A stretch of 64,000 nucleotides of DNA from Henricia sp. BOLD:AAB3569 (lineage: Eukaryota; Echinodermata; Asteroidea; Spinulosida; Echinasteridae): positions 2,170,001 through 2,234,000 of the forward strand of contig JBBELK010000297.1 of NCBI GenBank assembly GCA_037783545.1. The letters run 5' to 3'. A program made the position numbers and the translations under genes. Numbering within the stretch: position 1 is the stretch's first letter; every line of letters begins with the position of its first letter. The notes beneath the pieces were generated by a model. The model was given only the letters and a program-made list of their open reading frames with translations, had not been told where the DNA came from and searched no databases. Below are positions 1 through 53,934 of the stretch, one piece after another.

Positions 1-3000
1 ACACACATGAGAACCCTGTACTGGTGAGTAACCATGCACCGATAATCACTGTGATGAGACAGTCACACAGAGTAGCACCTTGAATACACACATGAGAACC
101 CTGTACTGGTGAGCAACCATGCACCGGTAATCACTGATGAGACATTTACACAGAGTAGCACCTTGAAGACACACATGAGAACCCTGTACTGGTGAGCAAC
201 CATGCACCGATAATCACTGATGAGACATTTACACAGAGTAGCACCTTGAAGACACACATGAGAACCCTGTACTGGTGAGCAACCATGCACCGATGATCAC
301 TGATGAGACATTTACACAGAGTAGCACCTTGAAGACACACATGAGAACCCTGTACTGGTGAGCAACCATGCACCGGTAATCACTGATGAGACATTTACAC
401 AGAGTAGCACCTTGAAGACACGCATGAGAACCCAGTACTGGTGAGTAACCATGCACCGATAATCACTGATGAGACATTCACACAGAGTAGCACCTTGAAT
501 ACACACATGAGAACCCTGTACTGGTGAGCAACCATGCACCGGTAATCACTGATGAGACATTTACACAGAGTAGCACCTTGAAGACACGCATGAGAACCCT
601 GTACTGGTGAGCAACCATGCACCGATAATCACTGATGAGACATTTACACAGAGTAGCACCTTGAAGACACACATGAGAACCCTGTACTGGTGAGCAACCA
701 TGCACCGATAATCACTGATGAGACATTCACACAGAGTAGCACCTTGAATACACACATGAGAACCCTGTACTGGTGAGCAACCATGCACCGGTAATCACTG
801 ATGAGACATTTACACAGAGTAGCACCTTGAAGACACGCATGAGAACCCTGTACTGGTGAGCAACCATGCACCGGTAATCACTGATGAGACATTTACACAG
901 AGTAGCACCTTGAAGACACGCATGAGAACCCTGTACTGGTGAGCAACCATGCACCGATAATCACTGATGAGACATTTACACAGAGTAGCACCTTGAAGAC
1001 ACGCATGAGAACCCAGTACTGGTGAGTAACCATGCACCGATAATCACTGATGAGACATTCACACAGAGTAGCACCTTGAATACACACATGAGAACCCTGT
1101 ACTGGTGAGCAACCATGCACCGGTAATCACTGATGAGACATTTACACAGAGTAGCACCTTGAAGACACGCATGAGAACCCTGTACTGGTGAGCAACCATG
1201 CACCGGTAATCACTGATGAGACATTTACACAGAGTAGCACCTTGAATACACACATGAGAACCCAGTACTGGTGAGTAACCATGCACCGATAATCACTGTG
1301 ATGAGACAGTCACACAGAGTAGCACCTTGAAGACACACATGAGAACCCTGTACTGGTGAGCAACCATGCACCGGTAATCACTGATGAGACATTTACACAG
1401 AGTAGCACCTTGAAGACACGCATGAGAACCCAGTACTGGTGAGTAACCATGCACCGATAATCACTGATGAGACATTCACACAGAGTAGCACCTTGAATAC
1501 ACACATGAGAACCCTGTACTGGTGAGCAACCATGCACCGGTAATCACTGATGAGACATTTACACAGAGTAGCACCTTGAAGACACGCATGAGAACCCTGT
1601 ACTGGTGAGCAACCATGCACCGATAATCACTGATGAGACATTTACACAGAGTAGCACCTTGAAGACACACATGAGAACCCTGTACTGGTGAGCAACCATG
1701 CACCGATAATCACTGATGAGACATTCACACAGAGTAGCACCTTGAATACACACATGAGAACCCTGTACTGGTGAGCAACCATGCACCGGTAATCACTGAT
1801 GAGACATTTACACAGAGTAGCACCTTGAAGACACGCATGAGAACCCTGTACTGGTGAGCAACCATGCACCGGTAATCACTGATGAGACATTTACACAGAG
1901 TAGCACCTTGAAGACACGCATGAGAACCCTGTACTGGTGAGCAACCATGCACCGATAATCACTGATGAGACATTTACACAGAGTAGCACCTTGAAGACAC
2001 GCATGAGAACCCAGTACTGGTGAGTAACCATGCACCGATAATCACTGATGAGACATTCACACAGAGTAGCACCTTGAATACACACATGAGAACCCTGTAC
2101 TGGTGAGCAACCATGCACCGGTAATCACTGATGAGACATTTACACAGAGTAGCACCTTGAAGACACGCATGAGAACCCTGTACTGGTGAGCAACCATGCA
2201 CCGGTAATCACTGATGAGACATTTACACAGAGTAGCACCTTGAATACACACATGAGAACCCAGTACTGGTGAGTAACCATGCACCGATAATCACTGTGAT
2301 GAGACAGTCACACAGAGTAGCACCTTGAAGACACACATGAGAACCCTGTACTGGTGAGCAACCATGCACCGATAATCACTGATGAGACATTTACACAGAA
2401 TAGCACCTTGAATACACACATGAGAACCCAGTACTGGTGAGCAACCATGCACCGATAATCACTGTGATGAGACAGTCACACAGAGTAGCACCTTGAATAC
2501 ACACATGAGAACCCAGTACTGGTGAGTAACCATGCATGCACCGATAATCACTGTGATGAGACAGTCACACAGAGTAGCACCTTGAATACACACATGAGAA
2601 CCCTGTACTGGTGAGCAACCATGCACCGGTAATCACTGATGAGACATTTACACAGAGTAGCACCTTGAAGACACACATGAGAACCCTGTACTGGTGAGCA
2701 ACCATGCACCGGTAATCACTGATGAGACATTTACACAGAGTAGCACCTTGAAGACACACATGAGAACCCTGTACTGGTGAGCAACCATGCACTGGTAATC
2801 ACTGATGAGACATTTACACAGAGTAGCACCTTGAAGACACACATGAGAACCCTGTACTGGTGAGCAACCATGCACCGGTAATCACTGATGAGACATTTAC
2901 ACAGAGTAGCACCTTGAAGACACACATGAGAACCCTGTACTGGTGAGCAACCATGCACCGGTAATCACTGATGAGACATTTACACAGAGTAGCACCTTGA

Positions 3001-3600
3001 AGACACACATGAGAACCCTGTACTGGTGAGCAACCATGCACCGGTAATCACTGATGAGACATTTACACAGAGTAGCACCTTGAATACACACATGAGAACC
3101 CTGTACTGGTGAGCAACCATGCACCGATAATCACTGATGAGACATTTACACAGAGTAGCACCTTGAAGACACACATGAGAACCCTGTACTGGTGAGCAAC
3201 CATGCACCGGTAATCACTGATGAGACATTCACACAGAGTAGCACCTTGAATACACACATGAGAACCCTGTACTGGTGAGCAACCATGCACCGGTAATCAC
3301 TGATGAGACATTTACACAGAGTAGCACCTTGAAGACACACATGAGAACCCTGTACTGGTGAGCAACCATGCACCGGTAATCACTGATGAGACATTTACAC
3401 AGAGTAGCACCTTGAAGACACACATGAGAACCCTGTACTGGTGAGCAACCATGCACCGGTAATCACTGATGAGACATTTACACAGAGTAGCACCTTGAAG
3501 ACGCACATGAGAACCCTGTACTGGTGAGCAACCATGCACCGGTAATCACTGATGAGACATTTACACAGAGTAGCACCTTAAATACACACATGAGAACCCA
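1..3600 (+). repeat. 83/85-bp satellite derived from a C2H2 zinc-finger coding repeat
   Basis: About 43 head-to-tail monomers of 83 bp, with 85-bp variants near 50, 1300, 2300, 2465 and 2550. Each aligns to the in-frame 84-bp finger repeats just downstream, which read HMRTHT, then a Q-P-C linker, then CDETVTQSSTLNTH. Relative to that repeat every monomer has one added base in the linker (CCCAT became CCCTGT) and most have lost two bases (CACTGTGATG became CACTGATG), giving 85 or 83 bp. The finger frame is therefore closed by TGA just after the linker insertion in almost every monomer. The array is not coding now. The finger origin is clear from the linker and the STLNTH helix. I infer that a broken finger exon was amplified as a satellite. 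Antisense 75-residue frames repeat every 83 bp only because the monomer does. Confidence 0.88.
305..2301 (+). repeat. Two copies of a 998-bp higher-order repeat (12 monomers each)
   Basis: Variant monomers recur in the same order 998 bp apart: those at 395, 478, 561, 644, 727, 810, 893, 976 and 1059 match those at 1393, 1476, 1559, 1642, 1725, 1808, 1891, 1974 and 2057. Eleven 83-bp monomers plus one 85-bp monomer give 998 bp. Single variants such as the CCCAGTACTGGTGAGTA monomer also recur 581 bp (seven monomers) apart inside each block. From about 2300 the order breaks down and monomers become more uniform. This nested arrangement is the usual result of unequal exchange in satellites. Confidence 0.82.
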
Positions 3601-4170
3601 TACTGAAGAGCAACCATGCACCGGTAATCACTGTGATGAGACAGTCACACAGAGTAGCACCTTGAATACACACATGAGCAGCGGCGGCGCTACGGGGGAG
3701 CAAATGCCCCCCCCCCCCGGTTATTTTTTTTGCCCTCCCAGTTTGCCCCCCAGTTTTTTCCCCGATGGCGGAAATTGAGTTTAATCCCAAACCATTGCAC
3801 CCAATTTGTTACAATGTTGTTTGCGCTGTAAATAATAAACTCAATTTCATCCATCATATTTAGCTGGCACCATAAAAAAATCCCAATTAATACACTTTAC
3901 AAAATTACATTTTTAAAATAGATTTTTGTTTTTCCCCCTGAATTTAAGTTTTCCCCCTCTTGCTCCCCCAGATTAACAGGTCTGGTGCCGCCGCTGCACA
4001 TGAGAACCCATACTGAAGAGCAACCATGCACCGGTAATCACTGTGATGAGACAGTCATGAGTAGCACCTTGAATACACACATGAGAACCCATACTGATCA
4101 AGAGCAACCATGCACTGGTAATCACTGTGATGAGACAGTCACACAGAATAGCACCTTGAATACACATCAG
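3590..4170 (+). pseudogene. In-frame C2H2 zinc-finger remnant, split by a MITE
   Basis: At 3590-3678 and again from 3997 to about 4160 the repeat keeps the original 84-bp (28-codon) period and reads HMRTHT-EEQPC, then CDETVTQSSTLNTH, on the plus strand. The first Cys of the usual Cys-X2-Cys pair is displaced by a TGN insertion-like stretch, so the fingers are already degenerate. A 6-bp loss near 4055 and a 3-bp gain near 4097 keep the frame. The block is interrupted by the inverted-repeat element at 3679-3996. It is the best local template for the satellite before it. There is no start codon, promoter or intact gene context. Confidence 0.7.
3679..3996. mobile_element. hAT-like MITE, 318 bp, with 8-bp target duplication
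   Basis: The ends are perfect inverted repeats, CAGCGGCGGC at 3679 and GCCGCCGCTG ending at 3996. A second inverted block lies further in (GGGGGAGCAA near 3694, TTGCTCCCCC near 3960). The element is flanked on both sides by the same eight bases, CACATGAG (3671-3678 and 3997-4004). An 8-bp duplication with CA...TG ends fits the hAT superfamily. The interior is C-rich on the left and AT-rich in the middle and has no transposase frame, so it is non-autonomous. It interrupts a zinc-finger repeat exactly at the H-M-R codons. Confidence 0.82.
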
Positions 4171-9540: not shown

Positions 9541-9700
9541 AACCCCTTCTTGCAGTATAACTGCACTTATGTGGTCGCTCATCACTCATTTTCCTATAAT
9601 AAATACATGGTGGGTTATCATGTGTCTTTTCATATTACTCCTGTCATTGAATGTCTTGGTGCTCCCCAATACATGTCATCATATAAGATTGCTATTGTTA
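9541..9700 (-). pseudogene. Zinc-finger debris, copy 1
   Basis: Shares about 140 bp with 10180-10325, including TGCACTTATGTGGTCGCT, ATGTGTCTTTTCATATTACT and GGTGCTCCCCAATACATG. On the minus strand the paired copy encodes a finger start (HKCSYCKKGFQ). In this copy the Cys region is altered by AGTATAACTGC. An (ATT)n run at 9695-9725 marks the junction with the Penelope-like insertion. Confidence 0.55.
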
Positions 9701-9726
9701 TTATTATTATTATTATTATCATTATA

Positions 9727-10115
9727 TACTGTGGGTAGCCGTGTTAGTCAAGCAAAACTATGAAGGAAATTAAAGTAGCACTTAAAGACTAACTAAAGTA
9801 ATAACTGCATAAGCTTTCGTAGCAACAACTACTTCATCAGATGCAATGAAGCTACACATGATCATCAACATGGGTATATAATCTAGTGTGGGTGTAGTCA
9901 AGCATGTCCGAACAAAAGGCTGTCCTGAGTCATAACTGGGCATAGTGTGACATGAAACCACGATCCCTATTGAGTCCAGCTTCAATGCAGCCAAGTCTCT
10001 GGATGATCTTTTGTTCCTCTGCTTCTCTGTCCATCCTGGTTTTGAAGCTCTTTTGTTTGAGCACAGCAACTTTCAGGTCAATGAGTGCTACTTTAATTCT
10101 TTAAGTGCTACTTTA
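9727..10115 (-). mobile_element. 3' fragment of a Penelope-like element
   Basis: On the minus strand, reading from about 10075, a frame contains KQKSFKTRMDREAEEQKII followed by GLNRDRGFMSHY. This resembles the C-terminal end of Penelope-like proteins, where a GLNRD...SHY motif is common. It is followed by the hammerhead core at 9804-9847, then TTAGTCTTTAAGTGCTACTT and GACTAACACGGCTACCCACAG, words I know from Penelope-type tails in other animals. The 5' part (reverse transcriptase) is absent. The TTTAAGTGCTACTTTAAT word occurs at both ends (about 9763-9790 and 10085-10120). It lies between two copies of a zinc-finger remnant. Family assignment is from memory. Confidence 0.68.
9804..9847 (-). 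ncRNA. Hammerhead ribozyme core in the Penelope-like fragment
   Basis: Minus strand, 5' to 3': stem I strand AUUGCAU, core CUGAUGA (9840-9834), an extra A, stem II GUAG with loop UUGUUG and CUAC (9832-9819), core GAAA (9818-9815), GC, UU, then AUGCAGU. AUUGCAU and AUGCAGU pair over seven positions with one G-U, placing the predicted cut after CUU (9811/9810). Both catalytic boxes are intact. Stem III is reduced to a G-C step without a loop, so self-cleavage might need a dimer. Minimal hammerheads of this kind are known in Penelope-like retroelements. Activity is not shown by sequence alone. Confidence 0.72.
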
Positions 10116-10129
10116 ATTTCCTTCATATT

Positions 10130-10335
10130 ATTATCATGTGTCTCTTAAAGTGACCATGTGTGGTCTTTCTTTGGAACCCCTTCTTGCAGTAGCTGCACTT
10201 ATGTGGTCGCTATCATCACTCATTTTCCTATAATAATGCATGGTGGGTTCCCATGTGTCTTTTCATATTACTCCCGTCATTGAATGTCTTGGTGCTCCCC
10301 AATACATGTCATCATATGTCTCTTAAAGTGGCCAC
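10130..10335 (-). pseudogene. Zinc-finger debris, copy 2
   Basis: The minus strand over 10160-10205 reads HKCSYCKKGFQ, the first half of a C2H2 finger, then KTTHGHFKRHMM over 10128-10160. The rest (10205-10325) repeats the sequence at 9549-9690. Stops and frameshifts break it. Same family of debris as elsewhere in the window. Confidence 0.6.
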
Positions 10336-11171: not shown

Positions 11172-12419
11172 TTATTGCTGACGAAGTCGAACCACTGAGC
11201 GTTGACTCCTTTGGTGGAATGACTCGAGTCTTCTGAGATCGGATTTCAGAAGGGTCCAGGTTTCTGAGCCATATAGCAGGACAGGAATGACGCAAGCCCT
11301 GTATATGCCCAGTTTGGTGGTGAGTTTCAGGCTCTTTAGCCTCCAGATTCTGCGTAGACTATCCCTGGCGGATGAGGCGAGACCGAGTCGTCTGAGGATG
11401 TCGGGTTCACTGCGCCCAGTGTTGGAGATCTTACTGCCAAGATACACGAAATCCTCCACAAGGTCGACAGACTGGCCGTTTACCATAATGTGGGAGGGAG
11501 TGCTGCAGTCACTTGGTGTCAAGACTTGGATTTTCGTTTTCTGCCAGGGGATGTTGAGACTGAGATTGGCAGCCTCGGTCTGAAAAGACTGGAGTGCGCC
11601 TCTCAGATCTTTGACCTCGTTACAGACAAGAGCGACATCATCAGCGTAGTCCATGTCTGAGAACTTGAACTGGCCGATGGTAATCCCCACGTCTGCGGTT
11701 GCCCTATCGAGTATCCAGTCCATGGCGCGACAGAGGGTGCCAGTGTACAGCCCTGTTTTACGCCAGATCTTGTGAGAAAACTGTCAGAGGTGTTCCTTCC
11801 TTGTCGCACCTTAGCAGTGGTATTGGTGTGGAGATCTTTGATAAGGTTGAGGAGATGGTGGGGAACGCTGATGACTTGAAGGGCTTTCCAGAGTGCTTGT
11901 CTATCGACCAAATCAAAGGCTGCCTTGAGGTTGACATAGGCCACGGAAAAGGGTTGGTTGAACTCGTGGTGCAGCTCGGACAACAGACGGAGGGCGAGAA
12001 TGGCGTCCAGTGTGGAGCGGCCAGCCGTGAATCCGGATTGCTCGGGTCGTCTGTGCTTAACTAGCAAGGGGTTCAACCGGGCTGGGAGGACGTGGGCGAA
12101 AACTTTCCCCGGAACGGATAGAAGCGTGATGGGTCTGTAGCTGCTACATTCAGTGCGGGGGCCCTACCCTTTGTAGAGTGTAACTATGATGCCCTCTTTC
12201 CATTCTGCTGGGGTTTTTCCTGATCGCCATACCTGTAGTAAGAGCCTGTGGAAGACAACTAATCGGGTCGATGGCGCACTTCAAGAGCTCAGGAGGGATG
12301 TGGTCAGGGCCGGCTGCTCTGCCGTTCTTCAGCCTTTTGATGGCTGATTTCACCTCTTCGAGAGTGGGGGCGTCCTCGGAAGTTACCGGGTCTGTTGGAG
12401 GAGCAATGGGAGTATCCAT
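11172..12419 (-). pseudogene. LINE reverse transcriptase fragments
   Basis: Three overlapping minus-strand frames cover one RT. 12419-12150 has KNGRAAGPDHIPPELLK. 12076-11603 has QSGFTAGRSTLDAILALR, a degraded catalytic-Asp region (YVNLKAAFD) and SGVKQGCTLAP. 11723-11172 has the YADDVAL active site and YLGSKIS, ending in LLYGSETWTLLKSD. Frameshifts near 12150 and 11650 separate them. In region A the usual D-x-x-x-A-F-D reads N-L-K-A-A-F-D, a changed catalytic residue. Confidence 0.83.
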
Positions 12420-12952: not shown

Positions 12953-13999
12953 TCACATCTTACAAGGGAGTGGGGGCTTCTTGGAATGGAAGCGAGGCAT
13001 GAGTGCTAGTGTTGCGATTAGTAGACGATGATCTGTGTTTGCTGGGGCTTCAGCTCCTCTGTAGACCCTGTAAGATTTTACTATCTTCCGGTTTTGGACA
13101 AGAATGTGATCAAGCTCTTTTCGTGTGTGACCATCATTGGAGATCCAAGTCGCTCTGTGGATGTTGCGGCGCCGGAACCAGCTGCCAGTTATAGAGATGG
13201 TTTGTGAGGCGCAGAAGGAGAGGATTCTTACTGAATTGTCATTAATGGAACCGGGGTTGTAAGGGCCTAGGATGGACTCGAAACCATTCCTTGAACAACC
13301 GGGGGTGGCGTTCATGTCACCGAGGACAACAAGCTCATCGTGGGGAGGGATATCCTCGGTGATGGCGGTGAGTTGGTTATAAAATTGATTCTTGGCGTGG
13401 TCATCAGATGTATTTGTTTGTGCATAGGCTACGATAATGGATAGCTGACCATGGCGATGCTGTAGTCTTACGTAGAGTAGGCGGTCAGAAATCGACTGCC
13501 ATTTAGTGATGGCCTTGTTGAAAGGCGGACAAACGAAGAGGGCTACACCGTTGATCTTTGTAGGACCACCGGAGTGTATGAGTGTGGCCTCTTCGGATTG
13601 ACAAATGCCACTGTCGACTAGTCTGGCTTCAGTGACACCTAGCACGGAGATGTTGTACAGATTCATTGGATGGATAATAGCCGTTTGATATCCATTCCCA
13701 TTAAGGGTTAAGGCGTTCCGGGTTGCAATTCGAAAGAACTTGCGTAGGTCCGTCTTGGGCGTCGTGACATTCGGCCTCATCGGAGAGGCACCTTTCCGAG
13801 TAGGGCTTTGAGTGCCGCTCGTCATTAGTGCAGGGTTCCTGCGGCTTTGGCTGTTGACGCTGAGTGGAGCAGGGGCTTTAACCCTGAGGCTAGTAGTTGT
13901 GTTCATAGAAGATCGGTTGCCCCTGGGTTGCCACAATGGTGGTGGTATGTGGCATAACTCTGCCTCCTTGGGACAGGGGAGACGAGAGCACTCTTCCAC
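12953..13999 (-). pseudogene. LINE endonuclease domain fragment
   Basis: A 348-codon frame. Residues of about 90-330 form an exonuclease-endonuclease-phosphatase fold: IATRNALTL near the start, VTEARL (catalytic Glu), YAQTN, GDMNATPG (Asp and Asn), then the ending NTDHRLL with the catalytic Asp-His. The function would be nicking of target DNA. The N-terminal third is Ser/Pro/Arg-rich like a linker. The frame closes at 12953 (TAAGATG on the plus strand), well before the RT, so the ORF is interrupted. Confidence 0.82.
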
Positions 14000-16246: not shown

Positions 16247-16769
16247 TTAAATTCCAATTGGCAAACCAAAAGAGCAAAGAATAAATTACATGGATAGACA
16301 CATTATACAGTGGATCCAGGGAGGGTGCAATAAACTAAACAAGGGGCCTAGGTATATGGACTGATGAATATTCATGAGGTAATAAAACCACTAATCCTTA
16401 GCCAGGCACACCATGTGTCCTTCAATGGTTCAGGACAATGTAATGCCAAAGCACATGTTTTTACTCTAACTTAAAAGTTAAGATTAAAAGTTAAAAGTAC
16501 ATAAAAACAAGCCAAAAACTATACAAGAGTCGCAGTAAAGTCTAAAATTTCAAGTTTAAATGCAGGGAGAACTTAAATTCAAAATGGTTTTACAACTAAA
16601 AAGCAGAGTAAAGTTGTTATGTTGTTTCAAATTCAAGAAAACTTCTTGTGAATGTCTTGATGTTCGAATGGTTGATGATGACACATCTTTCCCAAATCTT
16701 GATATAGAGTCTCAGTCCCCCTGCCTCGATCTTCTCTCTATAACTACATAAACCTTATGTAAATGACAA

Positions 16770-17137
16770 GTGTCACAAACTCCTTGGTGCAACAGAAGAC
16801 ACAATATACTGGGCCCTAGCTGCTTTGCTACTCGATCCGAACCCATGCAGACTAGATTATGTTTGCAGTCCCTACCTAATTGGCTAATATTTGGACTTAA
16901 TTGTCGTATACCATATACCATACCAGTATGGGTTCTCATGTGTGCCTTAAAGTCGCTATAGTCCGTAGAGCTAATATTTGGACTTAATTGTCGTATACCA
17001 TATACCATACCATACCATACCATACCAGTACGGGTTCTCATGTGTGCCTTAAAGTCGCTAGTCTCAACGAAAGCAACATCATGTCGATTTGGATCTATAC
17101 GGACCTCCTTGAAATCTGGGAAGGAGGCAAAAAACAA
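16770..17137 (-). pseudogene. U1A/U2B''-like RRM2 half exon joined to zinc-finger debris (copy A)
   Basis: The minus-strand frame begins near an acceptor-like CTTCCCAG and reads FKEVRIDPNRHDVAFVE, close to the RRM2 of U1A/U2B'' (family pattern GFKEVRLVPGRHDIAFVE). It then passes without a break into TSDFKAHMRTRTG, a C2H2 helix and linker, and a second DFKAHMRTHTG. The frame continues to CDTCHLHKVYVV and stops near 16712. An 8-bp deletion removes the residues before FKEV. No finger has both Cys and both His. Confidence 0.72.
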
Positions 17138-17589
17138 CTCGTAGATTTAATTCATCGCCATCGGCAAGAATGATAGTCCTTAATTGTGAGCTTCCAAAAT
17201 GCAACACTCTGCAAAAATCGGTCAAGTTTTTGTGGCCTGAAAGGAGCGTGTTCAGAAAAATGAATTTTGTTTTAACCTACATTAATTGTGTAACAATCGT
17301 ATAAAATATCTCCCCAATATACTATCCATGTGAGTAAGACAGGAAGTTTGCAATCGTCAATTTGGATATGTGGAAGCCGAAAGGTTGTTGTAATCACTGC
17401 TTTATATAACTAGATAAATTAGTTTACTAAATTTTGGTGGATTTTTTTACGATATCCTTTGAAATACATGTATATGGATTAAGGGCACAACATTTCAGAA
17501 AACTGAAACGAGAGAACCACAGTGATACCAATTGTATACTTAAAAGGATCAAAGTACAACCATGGGATTATACGATACTATAAACTCAC

Positions 17590-18884
17590 TCGTCACAGAG
17601 TTTCTTCTCCAGTTCTGTCAATGAATTGTAGATCTCTTTGTTGGCTATGCGATGCCAAAGGGGGCGTTGCTCGTAGCTGCTAATGAGTAAACGAGATGCC
17701 TCTCCACCCCGCCGCTTGTTGAACAGAAACAGTCGTGCTAAGGTTATCTCAACCAAAGCAGTCCATGCTTCAGGGGACGGTGACTTTTGAAGAACTGCCT
17801 TTGATCTCTCCAACTCAGCATCCATGTAGCTCCGCAGCTTGACAAGATCAGAAGTCGGGGGAAGTACATCCCCTTTATTGTATTTACGCTTAGCCATCGT
17901 TGCAAGAGCATGCGAAGATATCTTCTCTGACCACTCGTGCTCATGTAGCTGGAGGTACATCTCACACTCCTGGAGAAGGCTACTATTTTTTTTCCCGCAA
18001 AGCTAATCCTTGAAGTATGAGAGCACACTTCTTCAGAGAGTACCCCAGTTTCAGGGAAAGTGAAGGGATGCCAATCTCAGGAATGTCTCCATCAGAACCT
18101 TCGTTCCGTTCACTTATCTTCATAACTGCAGCTACTATCATATCGAAACATTCAGGCTTTAAGTAGTCAGCCAGATACGTGTCATCATCTGCCCCCATGG
18201 ATCGTAAGACCACCAGAAGGCGCCCAAGTTGGCGTAAACGTTGGGAGATGTATTGTGATTTCTGAGGACCCACTTTGTGCAGCAAGCTCTTTCCAAGACC
18301 CTTTATGAGCTTATCACTTTTCACTATCAGTGACACTGAGTCATGAGTCATTTTGGACAGAATATGCTTATTTAGAGAGGCATCTTCTTCAGCAGATGAT
18401 TCCAGAAAAGGCTGCATAAGCATCCGACTTTCTTGTTGGACCTTATGATGCGAGCTGTCATTAGGCAAATCCCCCGGTGCTTTTGGCTGCAGGCAGGATT
18501 TCTTGTGACGCCACAGATCAGAGCGAATGAAAAAACCCAAACAAACGGGGCAGGGTAGGTACTCCGACACTTTGACTTCCTGACCCCTTGGAGGCTTCCT
18601 CACAACAATCAATTCCCCTTTGTTTGTTGAGATGACTCGCATGTTATGGTACAAGTTACCCTGCAAACGCAGCTGCTCAAACGACTTACTTCTTCTGTTT
18701 GTTCCTCTTAATGTTTCCTCTGAAGCCACTGCTTCCTTCACAGCAAATTCTTCTGCATGCTTAGACTTTAAATGCCTTGCAGCTTTTGAAACAAGCTGAC
18801 CACAAAACAGACAGGCCTGTCGTTTTTCATACGAGCGGATGTACCTGTCTTCCTGTTCCTCACTGACATGAACATTGCGCACTC
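17590..18884 (-). pseudogene. C2H2-domain, recombinase-family-like exon (copy A), frameshifted
   Basis: Minus-strand exon between acceptor TTCTTGTTTAG and donor-like GACGA|GTGAGT. The first part has two zinc-knuckle-like motifs: CLFCG followed by HLKSKH, and CPVC followed by RSDLWRHKKSC. It then has a helical region (YISQRLRQLGRLLVVLRSMG) ending at ALREKK and TAG. A run of eight A (17993-17986) shifts the frame. Dropping one A would carry reading into a second segment with ALATMAKRKYN and RGGEASRLL. From memory, proteins with this layout in aquatic animals often end in a tyrosine-recombinase-like domain, which is not present here. Four copies in the window share the frameshift. Confidence 0.62.
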
Positions 18885-19682
18885 CTAAACAAGAAAGAAG
18901 ACAGGAGTGCAAATTTATAACAGTACATTTCCCAATATGAAACGGTTTTCTTGATTATTCTTGATACAATATACATAGACATTTACCAAAGACATTTTCT
19001 TACGAAGATGGCGTCTGTGAACTTAACAAGACATACAATAACTTGTTAGCGGCTATATGTATGTGTAACCGTGGAAAACGACACACTATATGGGGATATC
19101 TTAATACAGGACAATAGAACTCAATAAAAACGACACTGGGGAGGGAGCTAAGGACCAAGTCGCGAACTGTTTTTAAAGAAAGGTTTAATGAATAAAAAAC
19201 CAAAATGAAAAAGACCAAATAATCAACTAAAATTAATAACTGAACTAAAATCTTAAACTTGAAACCAACTTATAACCAACTAACATTTATAAAAAACTTA
19301 TTTGAGAGAAACTAAAAGCCAACACAGTGTAAAGTAAAAAGTATGAACCAGCAGGGGGTACAGACGAGTAGAAATATTCTGGCAGGAATAGCTTCGAAAC
19401 ACAGTTGAGGAGAGAGGATACATTTAGATGTCTTTACTCTTTGCTGCCAGGTCTGTACACTGACCGTGCGACAACAGTCACAGGCCAGTGACCTACACTA
19501 AACCACAAACTAATTTACATAAAAGGGGACACACTACATGAAGGACAAGTTACACAGAAAATGGGACACAGACAAGATAAAACAGAGGGACCATGAACAA
19601 AGTACACAAGGGGAGGAACTCCTATATAAGAAAGGGAGATAATTTATACATAATAAAGGACTATATTTTATCTCTTCGGCAC

Positions 19683-19842
19683 ATCTGCAGCTACCCGAGC
19701 TGTTATGAGGCATTCACACGGAGTAATGTATTACAAAGACACATAAGAATGTATGCAGAATCTGTGATGTGACATTGCCACAGGGCATCAACATAAAAAC
19801 ACACAATAATTAAGCCATACAGGTGAGCGGCCTTAGCTACAT
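19683..19842 (+). pseudogene. Zinc-finger debris (copy A)
   Basis: The plus strand reads CYEAFTRSNVLQRHIR, a finger lacking the first Cys of the usual pair, then CDVTLPQGINIKTH with a stop, and KPYR-like linker remains. The same block recurs at 40710, 46140, 51540 and 58500 within the array. Confidence 0.6.
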
Positions 19843-22470
19843 GCATGATTCGTCTTGTCGTCGTATACAGACCTCCGTGCTCCGGTTCGAACGGCAAGAG
19901 GTCTGTTTCAGACTTTTTGTCCGAGTTCACGTCTTTTATGGAGGGAATTCTTCACACAAGGGGTCGCCTTCTTATTGTCGGCGACTTCAATTTTCGCATT
20001 AATGCTACTGGTGCTTATTGTGACGCAGTTTCGTTCATGGAACTACTTCATTCTATGGACCTGGCACAACATGTTCGAGGTGCTACACATGACAAAGGAG
20101 CCACACTCGATTTGGTCATCACCCGGACTAGCGACACTCTGCTTGGTGACATAACAATAGACTGGTCACTACCGTCAGATCACGCTGCATTGCATTTTTC
20201 ATCTGTTCTTGAGCGTCCATCTGTACTGAGGACTCGGACTTCGCGGCGTGATCTTAAAATAATCGATATTGACTATTTCAAGCACAGAGTTGGTACGATT
20301 TTTTCCCAACAGGGTTGTTTTGGACAGTCTCCATCAGATCTTTTTCAGACATATAGCTCTGTATTGTCTGCTATATTGGATGAAGTGGCACCTATGAAAT
20401 CAAAAGTTCGCTATGATAAGCCTCGTGCACCGTGGTTTAAAGACTATCTTCTTGTTGCGCGTCAGGAACTGCGCAAACTGGAGAGACAATGGCGTTCTTC
20501 TGGGCTTGAAATACATATGCAGATTTACAAAAAGAACCGTAATGCATATTTTCAGTTTGTGTCTAGGTGCCACACTGAATACTATCGCGATCAAATTGAG
20601 ACTGCAGATCAAAGGACACTTTTCAGAATTATTGACAATATTTCAGGAGGCAAGAAGGGCACGGCATCAATACTTCCAGACTGTAAATTTCCTGTATTAA
20701 GTGAAAAAAGTTCTAAATTTTTTAGGTTCAAAATTGAAAAGTTAAGGCAAACTTTCTCAACAGATGTTTTGACAGGGTGCTCCATACTGTTGCAAAGTAC
20801 CGGTACATGTACAAGCAAATTTGCCTTTTTTGAACCTGTGACCATTCAATCTGTTGCGAAGCTTATACAAAAACTTCCTCCGAAGTTTTGCTCACTGGAT
20901 CCTATACCCACGTCATTGTTAAAGCATTGTGCAGAACAGGTTGCTCCGGTAATTGTTGATATTGTTAATTCTTCTTTTTTGACAGGGGAATTTCCTGATG
21001 GTTGTAAACACGCACTAATTCGTCCATTGCTAAAGAATCAAAAAATGCCTCAGAATGATCTCAGTAGTTATAGACCTGTTTCTAATTTGTCCTTTGTGTC
21101 AAAAATCATTGAAAAGTCTGTGTATTTACAACTTAATTCATATCTCTGCGAGTTTTCTCTTTATGCGAAATGTCAGTCTGCATACAGACAGCGCTACAGC
21201 ACTGAAACGGCTCTACTGCGGGTCCAGAATGATTTGCTGTTTGCTCTTGGTGAACGAAAAGATGTCATTCTTATTTTATTAGACTTATCGGCCGCTTTTG
21301 ACCCAATCGATCACGGTATCTTGCTGCAAAGACTGTGTTCTAGGTTTGGAATTGAGGGTACTGCATTGAAATGGTTTCAGTCATTTCCCCAGGGGTCGGT
21401 CCTTGGACCTGTTCTTTTCAGTTTATATACAGCACCCCTGGAGGACATCATAGTTCGTTATGGCTTGCAATACATGATGTATGCAGATGATACCCAAATC
21501 TACGTCACTTGTCGGGGTACTGAGCATTCGGTCAGTGTTCTGGAGCAATGTTTGGGGGAAATCCGTCTTTGGATGCGTGACAATTTGCTTGCACTGAATG
21601 ATAGGAAGACAGAGTTAATTAAATTTTCCTCCAAATTTGCTTCACACACTGTCAGCTCAGAGCCCCCATGTGTTGTTCATATTGGTGATGCAGATGTATA
21701 TCCTTCTGATAAGGTTCAAAACCTTGGTGTAATATTAGATTCAGCTGGCACCATGCGTGCTCAGGTCTCAAATGTGTGCAAAAAGGCTTCATTTGCACTT
21801 TGGAAAATTGGAAAAATTCGTTCTCTTTTGGATTCCAAAACTACAGAAAAGTTGGTGCACGCCTTTATTACATCCCGGATTGACTATTGCAATAGCCTTC
21901 TTTTTGGTATTCCTGCCAAAGAAGTTCGAAAATTACAAGTGATACAAAACTCTGCTGCCCGTCTAGTTACCAGGATTAACAAATATGAAAATATCACTCC
22001 AGTTATGAAAAAGCTGCATTGGCTCCCGGTGCAACAGAGAATCGAATTCAAAATTCTTTGTTTGACATACAAAATTTTAAACGGTATGGCCCCGGATTAT
22101 TTAGATGAGCTCCTGCGTGTCCGTGATACTGGCCGCTGTTTGAGATCGAATTCTCAGGGAGAATTGTATCTGTTCCAACCTGTTGGCGGTAACAAGTACT
22201 ACAGTGACAGGGCATTCCAGGTCTGTGCACCGAGACTTTGGAATGCCCTGCCACTGTTAGTACGTGGTGCCGTTTCATATGAAATTTTTAAAGGATCTCT
22301 TAAAACACATTATTTTTATTTTTTTTTAGGAAGATATAAAATTGTCAAATATTTTTGTACTTTTTAATGTGCTGTATTTTAATGTGTTTTTACTGTATAT
22401 GTAAAGCGCCCTGAGATAATTTTTATGGAGGGCGCTCTATAAGAATTTATTATTATTATTATTATTATTA
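19843..22470 (+). mobile_element. CR1/L2-superfamily LINE, 5' truncated
   Basis: Carries an 840-codon frame (endonuclease remnant plus RT), a short 3' UTR ending GGAGGGCGCTCTATAAGAAT and an (ATT)n tail at 22446-22469. Such microsatellite tails are usual for CR1/L2-like LINEs. Left of it the composite unit stops at CTACATGCATG. Right of it the unit resumes at ACTACATCAACC, leaving out about 2.35 kb of unit sequence, so the insertion came with a deletion or with recombination between adjacent units. Confidence 0.87.
19845..22367 (+). CDS. LINE ORF2: endonuclease remnant and reverse transcriptase
   Basis: Residues 1-140 are the C-terminal half of an APE endonuclease (VVYRPP, GDFNF, LDLVITR, SDHAALHF). 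The RT follows: SSYRPVSNLSFVSKIIEK, QSAYRQRYSTETALL, LLDLSAAFDPIDH, PQGSVLGPVLFSLYT, the YADDTQIY active site, LGVILDS, and the thumb with RIDYCNSLLFGIP and LHWLPVQQRIEFKI. It is open throughout. About 27 residues are missing in frame between LKWFQSF and PQGSVLGP (21372-21387), where the related LINE at 37828 has them. That removes part of RT motif B surroundings, so the enzyme is probably inactive. The endonuclease N-terminus is also absent. Confidence 0.87.
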   Translation: MIRLVVVYRPPCSGSNGKRSVSDFLSEFTSFMEGILHTRGRLLIVGDFNFRINATGAYCDAVSFMELLHSMDLAQHVRGATHDKGATLDLVITRTSDTLLGDITIDWSLPSDHAALHFSSVLERPSVLRTRTSRRDLKIIDIDYFKHRVGTIFSQQGCFGQSPSDLFQTYSSVLSAILDEVAPMKSKVRYDKPRAPWFKDYLLVARQELRKLERQWRSSGLEIHMQIYKKNRNAYFQFVSRCHTEYYRDQIETADQRTLFRIIDNISGGKKGTASILPDCKFPVLSEKSSKFFRFKIEKLRQTFSTDVLTGCSILLQSTGTCTSKFAFFEPVTIQSVAKLIQKLPPKFCSLDPIPTSLLKHCAEQVAPVIVDIVNSSFLTGEFPDGCKHALIRPLLKNQKMPQNDLSSYRPVSNLSFVSKIIEKSVYLQLNSYLCEFSLYAKCQSAYRQRYSTETALLRVQNDLLFALGERKDVILILLDLSAAFDPIDHGILLQRLCSRFGIEGTALKWFQSFPQGSVLGPVLFSLYTAPLEDIIVRYGLQYMMYADDTQIYVTCRGTEHSVSVLEQCLGEIRLWMRDNLLALNDRKTELIKFSSKFASHTVSSEPPCVVHIGDADVYPSDKVQNLGVILDSAGTMRAQVSNVCKKASFALWKIGKIRSLLDSKTTEKLVHAFITSRIDYCNSLLFGIPAKEVRKLQVIQNSAARLVTRINKYENITPVMKKLHWLPVQQRIEFKILCLTYKILNGMAPDYLDELLRVRDTGRCLRSNSQGELYLFQPVGGNKYYSDRAFQVCAPRLWNALPLLVRGAVSYEIFKGSLKTHYFYFFLGRYKIVKYFCTF

Positions 22471-37827: not shown

Positions 37828-39844
37828 ATAATAATAATAATAATACAAGCATTTGTAAAGCGCCATCTATCTATGTAAACATATTCCGAGGCGCTGTCCA
37901 GAACTATACAGATAATTATTATACATGTACATGTATGTATACTTGAAACAAAACCAGCAATCTAATTATAAGTTGAGTTAAACAGGAAAGTTTTAAGAAG
38001 GCATTTGAAGGTATGTAAAGATTGACAGCTACGAATTTCCTGAGGCAAAGAGTTCCATAGAGTGGGCGCCGTAACTGAGAAGGCATGGTCCCCATACGAT
38101 GTTCTTGTTCTTGGTGTCACAAGAAGATGTTTGTCAGATGACCTTGGGTGGCGATTAGGGGAATACTGGGTGAAGAGATCCTGCAGATATGTTGGTGCGC
38201 TGTCATTGAGGGCTTTCCAGGTAAGTAGGATTATTTTGAAGGCAACCCTCTGTTTGACTGGAAGCCAGTGAAGATTTCTCAGGACTGGAGTAATGTGGTC
38301 AAATTTCCGTGTTCGGGATAATACACGAGCCGCAGTGTTTTGAACATGTTGAAGTTTGCACATGAGAGTGTTGGTGATTCCAAACAGAAGTGAGTTGCCA
38401 TTATCCAACCTTGATGTCACGAGAGCATGGATAAGGATGGCAGCCGACTCATCAGTCAGGATTCGGCGGATGCTGTTGATGTTTCTAATATGGTAGTATG
38501 ACGTTTGGCAAACTTTCTTGACATGCGATTCCATTGACATCGTGCTGTCAAACATGATGCCAAGATTACGTGCAGTCGTAGAACGTTGAATATTAGAAGT
38601 CCCAATTTGCATCTGGTTGCATCTGATTTTAACCTGGCTACGTTTGGAAGTTATAATTAGAAGTTCGGTCTTGTCGTCGTTAAATTTTAATTTATTCCTG
38701 GTCATCCATTGCTTAAGATCACAAACACATTGTTCAATACGCTGTCTCACGGAATGTTCGTCGTCTTGGTTTCCTAGATGAAACGATCCATATATCTGTG
38801 TGTCGTCTGCATAGCAATGAACTTGAAGTTGATGCCTTCGTACAATAGCGGCAATAGGCTCGGAGTATATTGTGAAGAATAAGGGACCCAATACCGATCC
38901 TTGAGGGACGCCAGAAGAAAGCGAGATGGGAGATGATAAAGTTCCATTGATGTTCACAGTCTGTGTTCGATGACATATATATGATCTAATCCATTGCAGG
39001 GCTGGACCAGTAACGCCGAAGAACTGAAGGCGGTGCAATAAAACATCATAGTCTATAGTGTCGAATGCTGCAGAGAGATCAAGGAGAACAAGGAACACAC
39101 CACGCTTATCATCAACTGCCCGGAGAATATCGTTCTTAACTCTTTGAAGAGCAGTCTCTGTTCCATGATGTTTTCTATACGCAGATTGCAATGGTTCATG
39201 TAGATTGTGTTCAGTCAGATGATCAGTAATTTGGGAATAAACAACCTTCTCTATTACTTTGGATATGAATGAAAGGTTGGATACGGGACGAAAGTTCTTG
39301 AGGTTTTCAGGATCGAGGGTGGGTTTCTTCAGCAGAGGAGTCACCAGGGCATTTCTAAATTGCTGTGGGAATTTAGAAGATTGAAGAGACAGGTTGACAA
39401 TTTTGGAGATAACTGGAGTCAAAATATTCAGATTGTTCTTTAGGAGCCAGGTAGGAATTGGATCCAAATCGCACGTCTTTGATGGTGATGATTTGATGAT
39501 TTTCCTGATTTCCTCATCCAGAGCTGGTGTGAATTCTTCCAATGGTGTAATATCAGAGTGAGATGGTTCAGTGGTATACGGCTGCATACGATCTAGATCG
39601 CGGTCAAGATTATTACGAATGTTCCGAATCTTTGTTATAAAATAATCACTAAAAGTTGTTGCCAATTCCTGTTTATTGTCGTGTGTGGGTAGTTTAGTTT
39701 TTCCTTTGTTGTGGAGTAGAGATTCAACAATTTTGTAGAGCTCTCTCTGGTTCCCACAGCTGGCTAGTTTTTCTTTGAAGTACGATGATTTGGCACTGTT
39801 GATCATATTAACAACACAGAGTCGTTGCGCTTTAAATTGGTTTC
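37828..39844 (-). mobile_element. CR1/L2-superfamily LINE inserted in the C2H2-domain exon
   Basis: Minus-strand element with an (ATT)n tail (37828-37846), GTAAAGCGCC in its 3' UTR and an open RT. It sits between GGATGTA and CCTGTCTTCC, which are adjacent in the intact units (for example 45317). It is 5' truncated: the endonuclease is absent. No clear target duplication beyond TA. Confidence 0.88.
37962..39844 (-). CDS. LINE reverse transcriptase, open frame
   Basis: About 627 codons from the element, open without interruption. Order: a basic region, KNFRPVSNLSFISKVIEK, QSAYRKHHGTETALQRV, LLDLSAAFDTIDYD, SSGVPQGSVLGPLFF, the YADDTQIY active site, LNFNDDKTELL-type motif, LGIMFDSTMSMESH, then LHWLPVKQRVAFKI. 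All RT motifs are present, including the stretch lost in the LINE at 19843. The frame continues 11 codons further upstream into the interrupted host exon (to an ATG at 39878), a chance in-frame fusion. It could make RT if transcribed, but without the endonuclease it is unlikely to move on its own. Confidence 0.88.
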
Positions 39845-40709
39845 TACCTGTCTTCCTGTTCCTCACTGACATGAACATTGCGCACTCCTAAACAAGAAAG
39901 AAGACAGGAGTGCAAATTTATAACAGTACATTTCCCAATATGAAACGGTTTTCTTGATTATTCTTGATACAATATACATAGACATTTACCAAAGACATTT
40001 TCTTACGAAGATGGCGTCTGTGAACTTAACAAGACATACAATAACTTGTTAGCGGCTATATGTATGTGTAACCGTGGAAAACGACACACTATATGGGGAT
40101 ATCTTAATACAGGACAATAGAACTCAATAAAAACGACACTGGGGAGGGAGCTAAGGACCAAGTCGCGAACTGTTTTTAAAGAAAGGTTTAATGAATACAA
40201 AAACCAAAATGAAAAAGACCAAATAATCAACTAAAATTAATAACTGAACTAAAATCTTAAACTTTAAACCAACTTATAACCAACTAACATTTATAAAAAA
40301 CTTATTTGAGAGAAACTAAAAGCCAACACAGTGTAAAGTAAAAAGTATGGAGCAACTGTCAGGGGGTACAGACGAGTAGAAATATTCTGGCAGGAATAGC
40401 TTCGAAACACAGTTGAGGAGAGAGGATACATTTAGATGTCTTTACTCTTTGCTGCCAGGTCTGTACACTGACCGTGCGACAACAGTCACAGGCCAGTGCC
40501 CTACACTAAACCACAAACTAATTTACATAAAAAGGGACACACTACATGAAGGACAAGTTACACAAAAAATGGGACACAGACAAGATAAAACAGAGGGACC
40601 ATGAACAAAGTACACAAGGGGAGGAACTCCTATAAAAGAAAGGGAGATAATTTATACATAATAAAGGACTATATTTTATCTCTTCGGCACATATGCAGGT
40701 ACCCGAGCT

Positions 40710-41475: not shown

Positions 41476-41815
41476 TTATGGAATCATACATGTATAAAAT
41501 ACCTGGGCTGGGCTCGCAGGATTTGCGGAAAAGCTAAAACATCCAAAATACGAGCGCTGGTAGAACGTGAACACGACGTGAAAAACTTCGGTCAAACCAC
41601 AACACGTGAAGCTATCAATCATCCTACCTTCTGGATCCGCCGGTGACGCCTTCCATTTATGTGACACTTGTAACTCTGGTGAACAAATGGAAATTATACG
41701 CAGTGTGAAATCTTTGTCGGGAAAAACAACCGTAATTGTAAAGTAAACAATCCCCGCTCGTAAATTCTGTCTCAAGCCTTGCAATTGTTTTGTTTATGTC
41801 GTGTGAAAAGAGCTT
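41476..41815 (-). promoter_or_regulatory. TATA-led exon-like block of the unit (monomer B)
   Basis: The minus strand has GTATATAAAGCTC near 41820, a TATA-like box. It is followed by a 5' region and an open frame (AGIVYFTITVVFPDKDFTL, then HKWKASPADPE) ending at a donor CCAGAAG|GTAGGA near 41633. The frame has no ATG. Exon phase 1 at the donor matches the phase at the acceptor of the C2H2-domain exon 1.7 kb further along the same strand. So it may have been the first exon of that gene, with the start codon lost or elsewhere. Copies at 46891-47235, 53935-54190 and 59253-59590. Confidence 0.4.
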
Positions 41816-42004
41816 TATATACTAACAGCATACGCGTTGCATTTTACTTGGCATTCTTTGCAAAAGTGTTGTGTATAGCTGCCTTTGCTTCCTGTTTTAC
41901 GTGTAAAGAAACAAAGATTGTTAGTCCATGAGACAAGGTAAAAAAATTCCACAAAAACAGGTACCATTCGGAGGGACTACATCTATTCCCCTCTGGTTTC
42001 GGAT

Positions 42005-42255
42005 GAATTGGGCTGGGGTTGGGGTGGGTCGGGCCACGATGGGCGGGGCTGGGATAGGCCGACCTGGAATGGGCTAGGCTTCTTTGGCCTTGGGTTGGAC
42101 TGGGCTGGGCTGGGCTGGGGTGGTATGAGGTGGGTTGGGCCGAGATTGGGCTGGGCTGGGTGGATGGCTTCAGGCTAGGGTGGCTTCGGGTTACGGCCAG
42201 GCCAGTTTTGACATGTTTGAGCTTGGCTGGGCTGGAAGGGCTTCATCGAGCTGGG
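42005..42255 (+). repeat. G-rich GGGCTGGGCT block (monomer B)
   Basis: Degenerate short tandem copies of GGGCTGGGCT and GGGTTGG on the plus strand, several with four G3 runs in a row, able to form G-quadruplexes. Repeated at 47421-47670, 54375-54625 and 59775-60025. No gene in it. Confidence 0.75.
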
Positions 42256-42429
42256 CTTCATGCTTGGACATAATAGATATCACTGGAAAAGTGTTTGCAA
42301 ATTAGTAAAATTTAAGTGCACTAATTCCACAAATGTTCATGGATGAATTCAAATGACGAAGTGTGTGGTTTGGAAATTTCCTGCGAATTTGAATGCTGGT
42401 CGATGCAGTTGTTAAATCTGAATGGAATT

Positions 42430-42690
42430 GCATATGTAACCGTGAACAATGACACACTATGGGGATAGCTCAATAACTGAATAAAAATGACACCGGGGAC
42501 CTAAGGACCAAGTCGCAAACTGTTTTTAAAGAAAGGTTTATTGATTAACGACACCAAAATTAAACAGACCAAATATAATCAACTAAAATTAAACTAAACT
42601 AAATTCTTAAATTTGAAACCAACTTATAAAACCAACTAACAAGAAACCTGCAAAAAACCAACTAACACCAACACAGTGTAAAGTATTTAT
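42430..42690. repeat. Sub-repeat i of the unit (diverged from sub-repeat ii)
   Basis: TATGTAACCGTGAACAATGA, then GGACCAAGTCGCAAACTG and TTTTTAAAGAAAGGTTTAT, down to CCAACACAGTGTAAAGTA. Clearly related to 45495-45775 (TGTGTAACCGTGGAAAACGA, then GGACCAAGTCGCGAACTG) but diverged, with indels. The two enclose the U1A/finger chimera and the C2H2-domain exon. They could be remains of terminal repeats or of two copies of one small element. Confidence 0.65.
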
Positions 42691-43207
42691 AAACCTAGAG
42701 GCAAAATCAGGGAACCTGTAAACAAGCAAAACCAAAAGAGCAAAGAATGAATTACATGGATAAACACATTATACACTGGATCCAGGGAGGGTGCAATAAA
42801 CTAAACAAGGGGCCTAGGTATATGGACTTATGAATATTCATGAGGTAATAAAACCACTAATCCTTAGCCAGGCACACCATGTGTCCTTCAATGGTTCAGG
42901 ACAATGTAATGCCAAAGCACATGTTTTTACTCTAACTTAAAGGTTAAGATTAAAAGTTAAAAGTAAATAAAAACGAGCCAAAAACTATACAAGAGTCGCA
43001 GTAAAGTCTAGAATTTCAAGTTTAAATGCAGGGAGAACTTAAATTCAAAATGGTTTTACAACTAAAAAGCAGAGTAAAGTTGTTATGTTGTTTCAAATTC
43101 AAGAAAACTAATTGTGAATGTCTTGATGTTCGAATGGTTGATGATGACACATCTTTCCCAAATCTTGATATAGAGTCTCAGTCCCCCTTTCTCGATCTTC
43201 TCTCTAT

Positions 43208-43592
43208 AACTACATCAACCTTATGTAAATGACAAATGTCACAAACTCCTTGGTGCAACAGAAGACACAATATACTGGGCCCTAGCTGCTTTGCTACTCG
43301 ATCCGAACCCATGCAGACTAGATTATGTTTGCAGTCCCTACCTAATTGGCTAATATTTGGACTTAATTGTCGTATACCATATACCATACCAGTATGGGTT
43401 CTCATGTGTGCCTTAAAGTCGCTATAGTCCGTAGAGCTAATATTCGGACTTAATTGTCGTATACTATACCATACCATACCATACCATACCATACCAGTAC
43501 GGGTTCTCATGTGTGCCTTAAAGTCGCTAGTCTCAACGAAAGCAACATCATGTCGATTTGGATCTATACGGACCTCCTTGAAGCCTTGAAAT
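43208..43592 (-). pseudogene. U1A/U2B''-like half exon fused to zinc-finger debris (monomer C)
   Basis: Minus strand: polypyrimidine GCCTCCTTCCCAG acceptor (43594-43593), then FQGFKEVRIDPNRHDVAFVE (43592-43532), directly TSDFKAHMRTRTG, a TGGTA pentamer tract, DFKAHMRTHTG, later CDICHLHKVDVVIERRS and a stop near 43178. The RRM2 segment is broken off where U1A would continue F-D-N/T-E. The frame is open for 174 codons here and in monomers D and F. Same pieces at 48624-49008 (D), 55575-55960 (E) and 60985-61370 (F). With the upstream U1A-like exon present only at 23609-23705, these copies have no partner exon. Confidence 0.75.
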
Positions 43593-44066
43593 CTGGGAAG
43601 GAGGCAAAAAACAACTCGTAGATTTAATTCATCGCCATCGGCAAGAATGATAGTCCTTAATTGTGAGCTTCCAAAATGCAACACTCTGCAAAAATCGGTC
43701 AAGTTTTCGTGGCCTGAAAGGAGCGTGTTCAGAAAAATAAATTTTGTTTTAACCTACATTAATTGTGTAACAATCGTATAAAATATCTCCCCAATATACT
43801 ATCCATGTGAGTAAGACAGGAAGTTTGCAATCGTCAATTTGGATATGTGGAAGCCGAAAGGTTGTTGTAATCACTGCTTTATATAACTAGATAAATTAGT
43901 TTACTAAATTTTGGTGGATTTTTTTACGATATCCTTTAAAATACATGTATATGGATTAAGGGCACAACATTTCAGAAAACTGAAACGAGAGAACCACAGT
44001 GATACCAATTGTATACTTAAAAGGATCAAAGTACAACCATGGGAATATACGATACTATAAACTCAC

Positions 44067-45361
44067 CTGTCACAGAGTTTCTTCTCCAGTTCTGTCAATG
44101 AATTGTAGATCTCTTTGTTGGCTATGCGATGCCAAAGGGGGCGTTGCTCGTAGCTGCTAATGAGTAAACGAGATGCCTCTCCACCCGGCCGCTTGTTGAA
44201 CAGAATCAGTCGTGCTAAGGTTATCTCAACCAAAGCAGTCCATGCTTCAGGGGACGGTGACTTTTGAAGAACTGCCTTTGATCTCTCCAACTCAGCATCC
44301 ATGTAGCTCCGCAGCTTGACAAGATCAGAAGTCGGGGGAAGTACATCCCCTTTATTGTATTTACGCTTAGCCATCGTTGCAAGAGCATGCGAAGATATCT
44401 TCTCTGACCACTCGTGCTCATGTAGCTGGAGGTACATCTCACACTCCTGGAGAAGGCTACTATTTTTTTTCCCGCAAAGCTAATCCTTGAAGTATGAGAG
44501 CACACTTCTTCAGAGAGTACCCCAGTTTCAGGGAAAGTGAAGGGATGCCAATCTCAGGAATGTCTCCATCAGAACCTTCGTTCCGTTCACTTATCGTCAT
44601 AACTGCAGCTACTATCATATCGAAACATTCAGGCTTTAAGTAGTCAGCCAGATACGTGTCATCATCTGCCCCCATGGATCGTAAGACCACCAGAAGGCGC
44701 CCAAGTTGGCGTAAACGTTGGGAGATGTATTGTGATTTCTGAGGACCCACTTTGTGCAGCAAGCTCTTTCCAAGACCCTTTATGAGCTTATCACTTTTCA
44801 CTATCAGTGACACTGAGTCATGAGTCATTTTGGACAGAATATGCTTATTTAGAGAGGCATCTTCTTCAGCAGATGATTCAAGAAAAGGCTGCATAAGCAT
44901 CCGACTTTCTTGTTGGACCTTATGATGCGAGCTGTCATTAGGCAAATCCCCCGGTGCTTTTGGCTGCAGGCAGGATTTCTTGTGACGCCACAGATCAGAG
45001 CGAATGAAAAAACCCAAACAAACGGGGCAGGGTAGGTACTCCGACACTTTGACTTCCTGACCCCTTGGAGGCTTCCTCACAACAATCAATTCCCCTTTGT
45101 TTGTTGAGATGACTCGCATGTTATGGTACAAGTTACCCTGCAAACGCAGCTGCTCAAACGACTTACTTCTTCTGTTTTTTCCTCTTACTGTTTCCTCTGA
45201 AACCACTACTTCCTTCACAGCAAATTCTTCTGCATGCTTAGACTTTAAATGCCTTGCAGCTTTTGAAACAAGCTGACCACAAAACAGACAGGCCTGTCGT
45301 TTTTCATACGAGCGGATGTACCTGTCTTCCTGTTCCTCACTGACATGAACATTGCACACTC
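44067..45361 (-). pseudogene. C2H2-domain, recombinase-family-like exon (monomer C), frameshifted
   Basis: 1295 nt between acceptor TTCTTGTTTAG (45366-45362) and donor GACAG|GTGAGT (44066). Part one (about 300 codons) has CLFCG...HLKSKHAEEF, CPVCLGFFIRSDLWRHKKSC and a helical QRLRQLGRLLVVLRSMGADD region, ending ALREKK-stop. An A8 run (44470-44463) causes the stop. With seven A the reading would pass into LLQECEMYLQLHEHEW, ALATMAKRKYNKGDVLPP and NKRRGGEASRLL, the order seen in related proteins as I remember them. Here RR is RP (44183 region). The catalytic C-terminal domain expected downstream is absent from the unit. Confidence 0.65.
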
Positions 45362-45494
45362 CTAAACAAGAAAGAAGACAGGAGTGATTATTCTTGATAC
45401 AATATACATAGACATTTACCAAAGACATTTTCTTACGAAGATGGCGTCTGTGAACTTAACAATACATACAATAACTTGTTAGCGGCTATATGTA

Positions 45495-53916: not shown

Positions 53917-53934
53917 ACGAGCGCTGGTAGAACG

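Follow-up and report, generated by a model that had tools for sequence, protein, structure and literature searches.

Does the hammerhead-like motif at positions 9804 to 9847 of this stretch of Henricia DNA (64,000 nucleotides, in the following called the window) belong to a mobile element, and if so, to which kind? An earlier note on the same DNA had placed an intact hammerhead ribozyme core in a Penelope-like fragment. Our analysis leads to a similar placement: the feature is likely the 3' portion of a Penelope-like retroelement that is truncated at its 5' end and lies on the minus strand, inserted into an AT-rich target and carrying in its pseudo-LTR a hammerhead nearly devoid of stem III. 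This hammerhead looks like a new example of the small Penelope hammerheads already described, not like a new phenomenon.

Layout of the hammerhead motif

Sequence reading, a pattern scan and a structural scan all placed the hammerhead core on the minus strand, running from 9847 to 9804. The predicted RNA reads AUUGCAU-CUGAUGA-A-GUAG-UUGUUG-CUAC-GAA-A-GC-U-U^AUGCAGU and has the following parts:

9804..9847, minus: hammerhead motif (sequence, pattern scan, structural scan with shuffles, fold of 44 nt)
9847-9841 and 9810-9804, minus: the two strands of stem I
9840-9834, minus: CUGAUGA box, followed by the extra A at 9833
9832-9829 (9828) with 9822-9819 (9823), minus: stem II
9818-9816, minus: GAA, followed by A15.1 (9815), GC (9814-9813), U16.1 (9812) and U17 (9811)

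The CUGANGA and GAAA boxes stand in the right order and stems I and II are both present, in a type I layout. Stem I consists of seven pairs including one G·U, and stem II of four Watson-Crick pairs, to which a U·G may be added (4-5 bp); one extra A separates CUGAUGA from stem II. Stem III is reduced to the single pair A15.1-U16.1, which encloses GC, and loop III is self-complementary (AGCU palindrome). The cut is predicted between 9811 and 9810 (U9811^A9810). The earlier note had described the boxes, a 4-bp stem II, a 7-bp stem I and a one-step stem III in this order and had set the cut at 9810/9811. Sequence and scans bear out the former and the layout agrees with the latter; the strand, which was not named there, is the minus strand. 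Its word "intact" is correct insofar as the core is unbroken, but carries little weight, since the identical 29-nt arms and the 12-bp repeats described below allow for a young copy. The hammerhead copy may simply be young, and for the same reason the unbroken core says little on selection.

Small hammerhead variants of Penelope-like elements have reportedly been described by Cervera and de la Pena in 2014 and by Lunse et al. in 2017. De la Pena and Flores reportedly found in 2001 a viroid hammerhead with an additional nucleotide in its core, a precedent for the extra A. As portrayed in reviews, the small Penelope variants resemble our motif in the type I order, the full CUGAUGA and GAAA boxes, the virtual lack of stem III, the pseudo-LTR-like surroundings and the palindromic loop III. 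It differs from them in being present in one copy only, with no tandem partner, and perhaps in the extra A after CUGAUGA.

The insert that carries the motif

Around the hammerhead, flanking 12-bp repeats, inverted arms and the likeness to published Penelope anatomy delimit an insert of 403 bp:

9541..9684, minus: left host repeat unit, a zinc-finger-like relic interrupted by the insert (93% identity to 10175-10317; flanks aligned as an empty site)
9711..9722, no strand: left copy of the 12-bp direct repeat TATTATTATCAT, a proposed target-site duplication, within a TTA-rich tract
9723..10125, minus: the insert
9723..9760, minus: 3' "tail" of 38 nt, recognised by comparing the 3' end with the inverted arm; the inverted copy at the opposite end lacks it
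9748-9729, minus: AC-rich stretch ACUAACACGGCUACCCACAG at the predicted stem-loop
9743..9793, minus: predicted stem-loop, GUUAGUC (9793-9787) with GACUAAC (9749-9743)
9759..9787, no strand: inverted-repeat arm of 29 nt directly downstream of the hammerhead, 29/29 to the reverse complement of 10099-10127
9930..10100, minus: frame of 56 codons (10100-9933) with its stop (9932-9930), ending in REAEEQKIIQRLGCIEAGLNRDRGFMSHYAQL on translation
10099..10127, no strand: 5'-end inverted arm, sharing its outermost 2 nt with the right direct repeat
10126..10137, no strand: right copy of the 12-bp direct repeat
10175..10317, minus: right host repeat unit, uninterrupted

The 12-bp repeat is exact. When the right zone was shuffled 2000 times, 7 shuffles reached 12 nt and 146 reached 9 nt; likewise, among 1568 further 32-nt pieces taken from the window, a single one matched the left zone over 12 nt. 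The target, which is AT-rich, contains ATT, and the repeat corresponds to the short target-site duplication of Penelope-like elements. A border at 9685-10132 with a 7-bp repeat (one mismatch) was set behind 9723-10125 with its exact 12-bp repeat. Either border may be the true one, since the TTA tract makes the left side hard to read. The host units, when translated on the minus strand, yield pieces such as FNDRSNMKRHMITHH, which judged by eye have the look of a decayed C2H2 zinc finger. Both the 12-bp repeat and the TTA tract are missing from the right host unit, which hence does not display the exact pre-insertion site.

Read 5' to 3', the insert consists of an inverted pseudo-LTR piece, the end of an endonuclease-like frame, the 3' pseudo-LTR with the hammerhead, and the tail. 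In a BLAST comparison of the window with itself the inverted arms aligned over 42 columns (90.5% identity, E 4e-10). The right arm reaches the border of the insert and the left arm lies 36-38 nt inside the left border. The 29/29 arms and this asymmetry of 38 nt correspond to the inverted 5' pseudo-LTR and the optional tail of 30-40 nt of Penelope-like elements. With the start of stem II (9832) taken as nucleotide 1, the 3' end including the tail falls on nucleotide 110 (9723). The fold of 9724-9803, which contains the stem-loop, has an energy of -10.3 kcal/mol (a single fold without shuffle control).

These features are directly relevant to the attribution to a Penelope-like fragment made in the earlier note: it is supported by the 12-bp direct repeat, the inverted 5' copy, the 38-nt tail and the matching distances, none of which was listed there.

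The 56-aa frame appears to resemble the C-terminus of a Penelope GIY-YIG endonuclease; it has no match in Pfam and none in PDB. A pattern for such an endonuclease end matched once in the window. However, this pattern was composed after the peptide was known, and thus the single match is no independent evidence. Stops occur in all three frames from 9847 to 9723, so that no reading frame passes through hammerhead and tail. The insert could be a damaged or non-autonomous copy descended from an element whose ORF started at the hammerhead. No telomerase-like reverse transcriptase domain is present in the insert, which at 403 bp is too truncated to leave room for one; the reverse transcriptase matches in the window belong to other ORFs.

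Comparison with known Penelope-like elements

In PAc, the Poseidon element of Anolis carolinensis, about 110 nt separate the hammerhead from the 3' end, which has an AC-rich stem-loop and an optional tail of 30-40 bp, and the element inserts into AT-rich targets with ATT (PMC11167929). Reverse transcription of this lizard element starts 111-118 nt from the point equivalent to the start of stem II (PMC11167929). The insert is like PAc in the distance from hammerhead to end, the AC-rich stem-loop, the tail and the AT-rich target with ATT. The ORF starts at the hammerhead/tail region both in the Anolis element (PMC11167929) and in rotifer elements (PMC3846280). In PAc, compared here by its description, the ORF begins at stem II; this start is not kept in the insert, because the three frames from 9847 to 9723 contain stops.

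Adineta vaga Pen2a/Pen2 are described as having an inverted 5' pseudo-LTR, a tail of 31 bp that is optional, and target-site duplications 8-10 bp long (PMC3846280). Whereas these elements are presented there with full or long ORFs, the insert has a C-terminal remnant and a 12-bp repeat. From the layout, the direct repeats, the arms, the tail missing at one end and the distances, which can all be read off the DNA, we infer that the insert is a member of the Penelope-like elements.

Chance expectation for the motif

A structural scan of both strands of the 64-kb window for relaxed layouts (stem I ≥5, stem II ≥4, 0 or 1 extra nt, loop III 2-30 nt) gave one result, the hammerhead at 9847→9804. In 300 dinucleotide shuffles of the window, again on both strands, 8 relaxed layouts appeared in total; one of these had stem I ≥7, and none combined stem I ≥7 with a 2-nt loop III. 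CUGANGA and GAAA lie 8-35 nt apart at 11 places in the window, and at a further place, 12497, with 7 nt between them. Among all these only 9847→9804 passed the pairing scan. The two-box pattern scan found 2 cases in the window where 0.13 were expected.

Could the string nevertheless be an accident of an AT-rich, repeat-rich window, with the flanking features unrelated to it? The 8 layouts in 300 shuffles amount to about 0.03 per window, so that some would turn up if many windows were scanned. Thus the motif alone is weak in a large scan, and it is the setting that adds most weight. Hammerhead models are among the 4,227 Rfam families. The covariance-model search called for by the earlier note, carried out with Rfam 15, turned out against it: no hammerhead matched at gathering score in the window, at E≤10 in 1,201 nt or even at E≤10 in 60 nt, although the models may or may not cover minimal Penelope variants. 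This is in favor of an accident, as is a bacterial record with an exact match to the string whose stem II is unpaired (see below). On the other hand, the tight layout is absent from the 300 shuffles, and the motif sits where published Penelope-like elements carry their hammerhead. We therefore regard an accidental origin as improbable.

The bacterial record was the only match of the hammerhead pattern in genome contigs (Clostridia MAG, L001 7762-7797). It was rejected as a chance match, having no paired stem II and no Rfam match and lying in what by eye is a protein-coding stretch. It is a useful false positive for the string pattern.

Other element types

The insert could also be a unit of the retrozyme or satellite type, i. 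e. a small, non-autonomous repeat that carries a canonical hammerhead of type I and gives rise to circular RNA of about 170-400 nt. Its 403 bp are near this size range, the topology is type I and the setting is low in G+C; metazoan retrozymes likewise have a type I hammerhead in a unit of a few hundred bp (PMC7229834). However, the described metazoan non-LTR retrozymes have canonical hammerheads in tandem repeats (PMC7229834), whereas the window contains one hammerhead layout and 9723-10125 no tandem array except for the TTA tract. Moreover, the insert lacks stem III and has a protein-end-like frame, and the inverted arm and the tail asymmetry fit Penelope, which makes a retrozyme very unlikely.

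Equally remote is a DNA element of the foldback or MITE-like type, bounded by terminal inverted repeats, in which the hammerhead is incidental. The inverted arms, which match exactly over 29 bp and lie near both ends, would be in line with such an element, as would the direct repeat. Yet only the right arm is at the border, the left one being 36 nt within it, an asymmetry which the tail of a Penelope-like element explains, and the protein-end-like frame and the hammerhead share the same sense.

A C/D-box snoRNA-like sequence is hardly credible: SNORD74 is the top Rfam family at the hammerhead (16.8 bits; E 0.067 in the search with 60 nt), owing to the likeness of CUGAUGA to a C box, but its gathering score is 41, most of the model is skipped and E rises to 1.3 over 1,201 nt.

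Search for relatives

In viral contigs the full hammerhead pattern had no match. Looser patterns gave 7 loci there, none of them with CUGANGA in the 60 nt upstream, and other forms gave none. The endonuclease-like peptide had 30 pattern matches in viral contigs, of which none was confirmed; five phage records from the search with this peptide were dropped at E 3-7. With the DNA of 9690-10140, matches were found neither in phages nor in plasmids. The collections searched are prokaryotic or viral, and hence the absence of relatives says little about animals.

Predicted folding

The bare 44-nt core folds with stems I and II at -12.0 kcal/mol. A stretch of 61 nt folds no better than its shuffles (z -1.00, with 31 of 200 doing as well), and the fold of minimum energy is different from the hammerhead. 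The pair probability of stems I and II was 0.11-0.13 in this stretch, 0.47-0.68 when 168 nt were folded and 0.24-0.46 with a context of 400 nt. In nearest-neighbour energies, a double hammerhead has -20.7 kcal/mol as compared with -21.8 for two single ones (2 x -10.9). The best dimer (-26.8 kcal/mol) is another fold, not the double hammerhead, which is thus disfavoured by the energy model.

Possible mechanism

The two ends of the insert suggest that reverse transcription started at two sites 38 nt apart, which would have produced one tailed end and one inverted end without tail. As to the hammerhead, two copies in RNA, from tandem elements or from two transcripts, might join their stems III via AGCU to form a double hammerhead; because AGCU is a palindrome, they could share a stem III of 4 bp. 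The double hammerhead would then cut at U9811^A9810 and release unit-length RNA with 5'-OH ends. Alternatively, the protein of the element could aid the folding of a single hammerhead copy. Most likely it is tandem RNA that would be cut, either as a dimer or with protein. A transcript from the present locus should cut poorly, because it has one hammerhead copy only, and at such a single-copy locus the motif may do nothing.

Reviews describe the Penelope hammerheads as minimal, without helix III and in tandem, state that they may cut as dimers, and call their role unknown (PMC7761336, PMC6466107). The PAc hammerhead cut only in the presence of protein, mutants of it did not alter insertion in vitro, and RNA-seq showed no ends at the cut site (PMC11167929). 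In view of these findings, cutting at this locus, like dimerisation and the order of events, is what we infer from the model and not more.

Possible conservation of the 3' module

Vertebrate Penelope-type repeats appear to have the same boxes, GCUUAUGC, GUUAGUC and GACUAACACGGCU, together with a different but paired stem II; such a recurrence, to which the earlier note had also pointed, would amount to covariation over a great distance. Tentatively, and with slightly more doubt than confidence, we suggest that the 3' module (hammerhead with the extra A, GCUUAUGC, the stem-loop GUUAGUC...GACUAACACGGCU and tail) is a homologous unit common to abundant Penelope-derived repeats of vertebrates with another paired stem II. 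It would then be an RNA module maintained by selection in animals only very distantly related, in which the ribozyme and the stem-loop at the start of reverse transcription act together. If this is true, the hammerhead positions or exposes the site at which the enzyme of the element starts copying. Furthermore, if the module is conserved down to vertebrates, covariation in stem II would demonstrate that the ribozyme fold as such is under selection. Searches of paper text with the short motif strings returned papers that, by title only, are on unrelated subjects, and we do not claim that such covariation is absent from print. A literature search for Penelope hammerheads together with Branchiostoma gave PMC11167929 alone.

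Independently of this suggestion, 430 bp display a hammerhead, a stem-loop at the start of reverse transcription, tailed and tailless 3' ends and a target-site duplication, and thus are a compact test object. The borders of this insert, which lies in a different genome, seem to be predicted by the rule obtained in vitro with the lizard element (two start sites, separated by the tail).

Other features of the window

Domains of LINE-type reverse transcriptases and endonucleases (Pfam) are encoded at 19845-22367 (plus), 37962-39878 (minus), 11172-11723 (minus) and 12953-13999 (minus), all outside the Penelope insert. The first 4731 nt are occupied by a long C2H2 zinc-finger-like array with units of about 83 bp (44 copies in 1-3678) and units of 74-84 bp up to 4731. 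Together with such arrays, the LINE-type reverse transcriptase ORFs suggest an animal genome. Large, near-identical tandem segments fill 39845-61732, e. g. 41550-49354 and 53917-61732 with 99.3% identity over 7822 columns. They are recent segmental repeats, related to 16263-19847 and in part with a period of about 5.4 kb. Finally, 52844-53256 is a complex minisatellite with nested periods of 15, 16, 63, 138 and 201, built on GTACCACAGGAACC.
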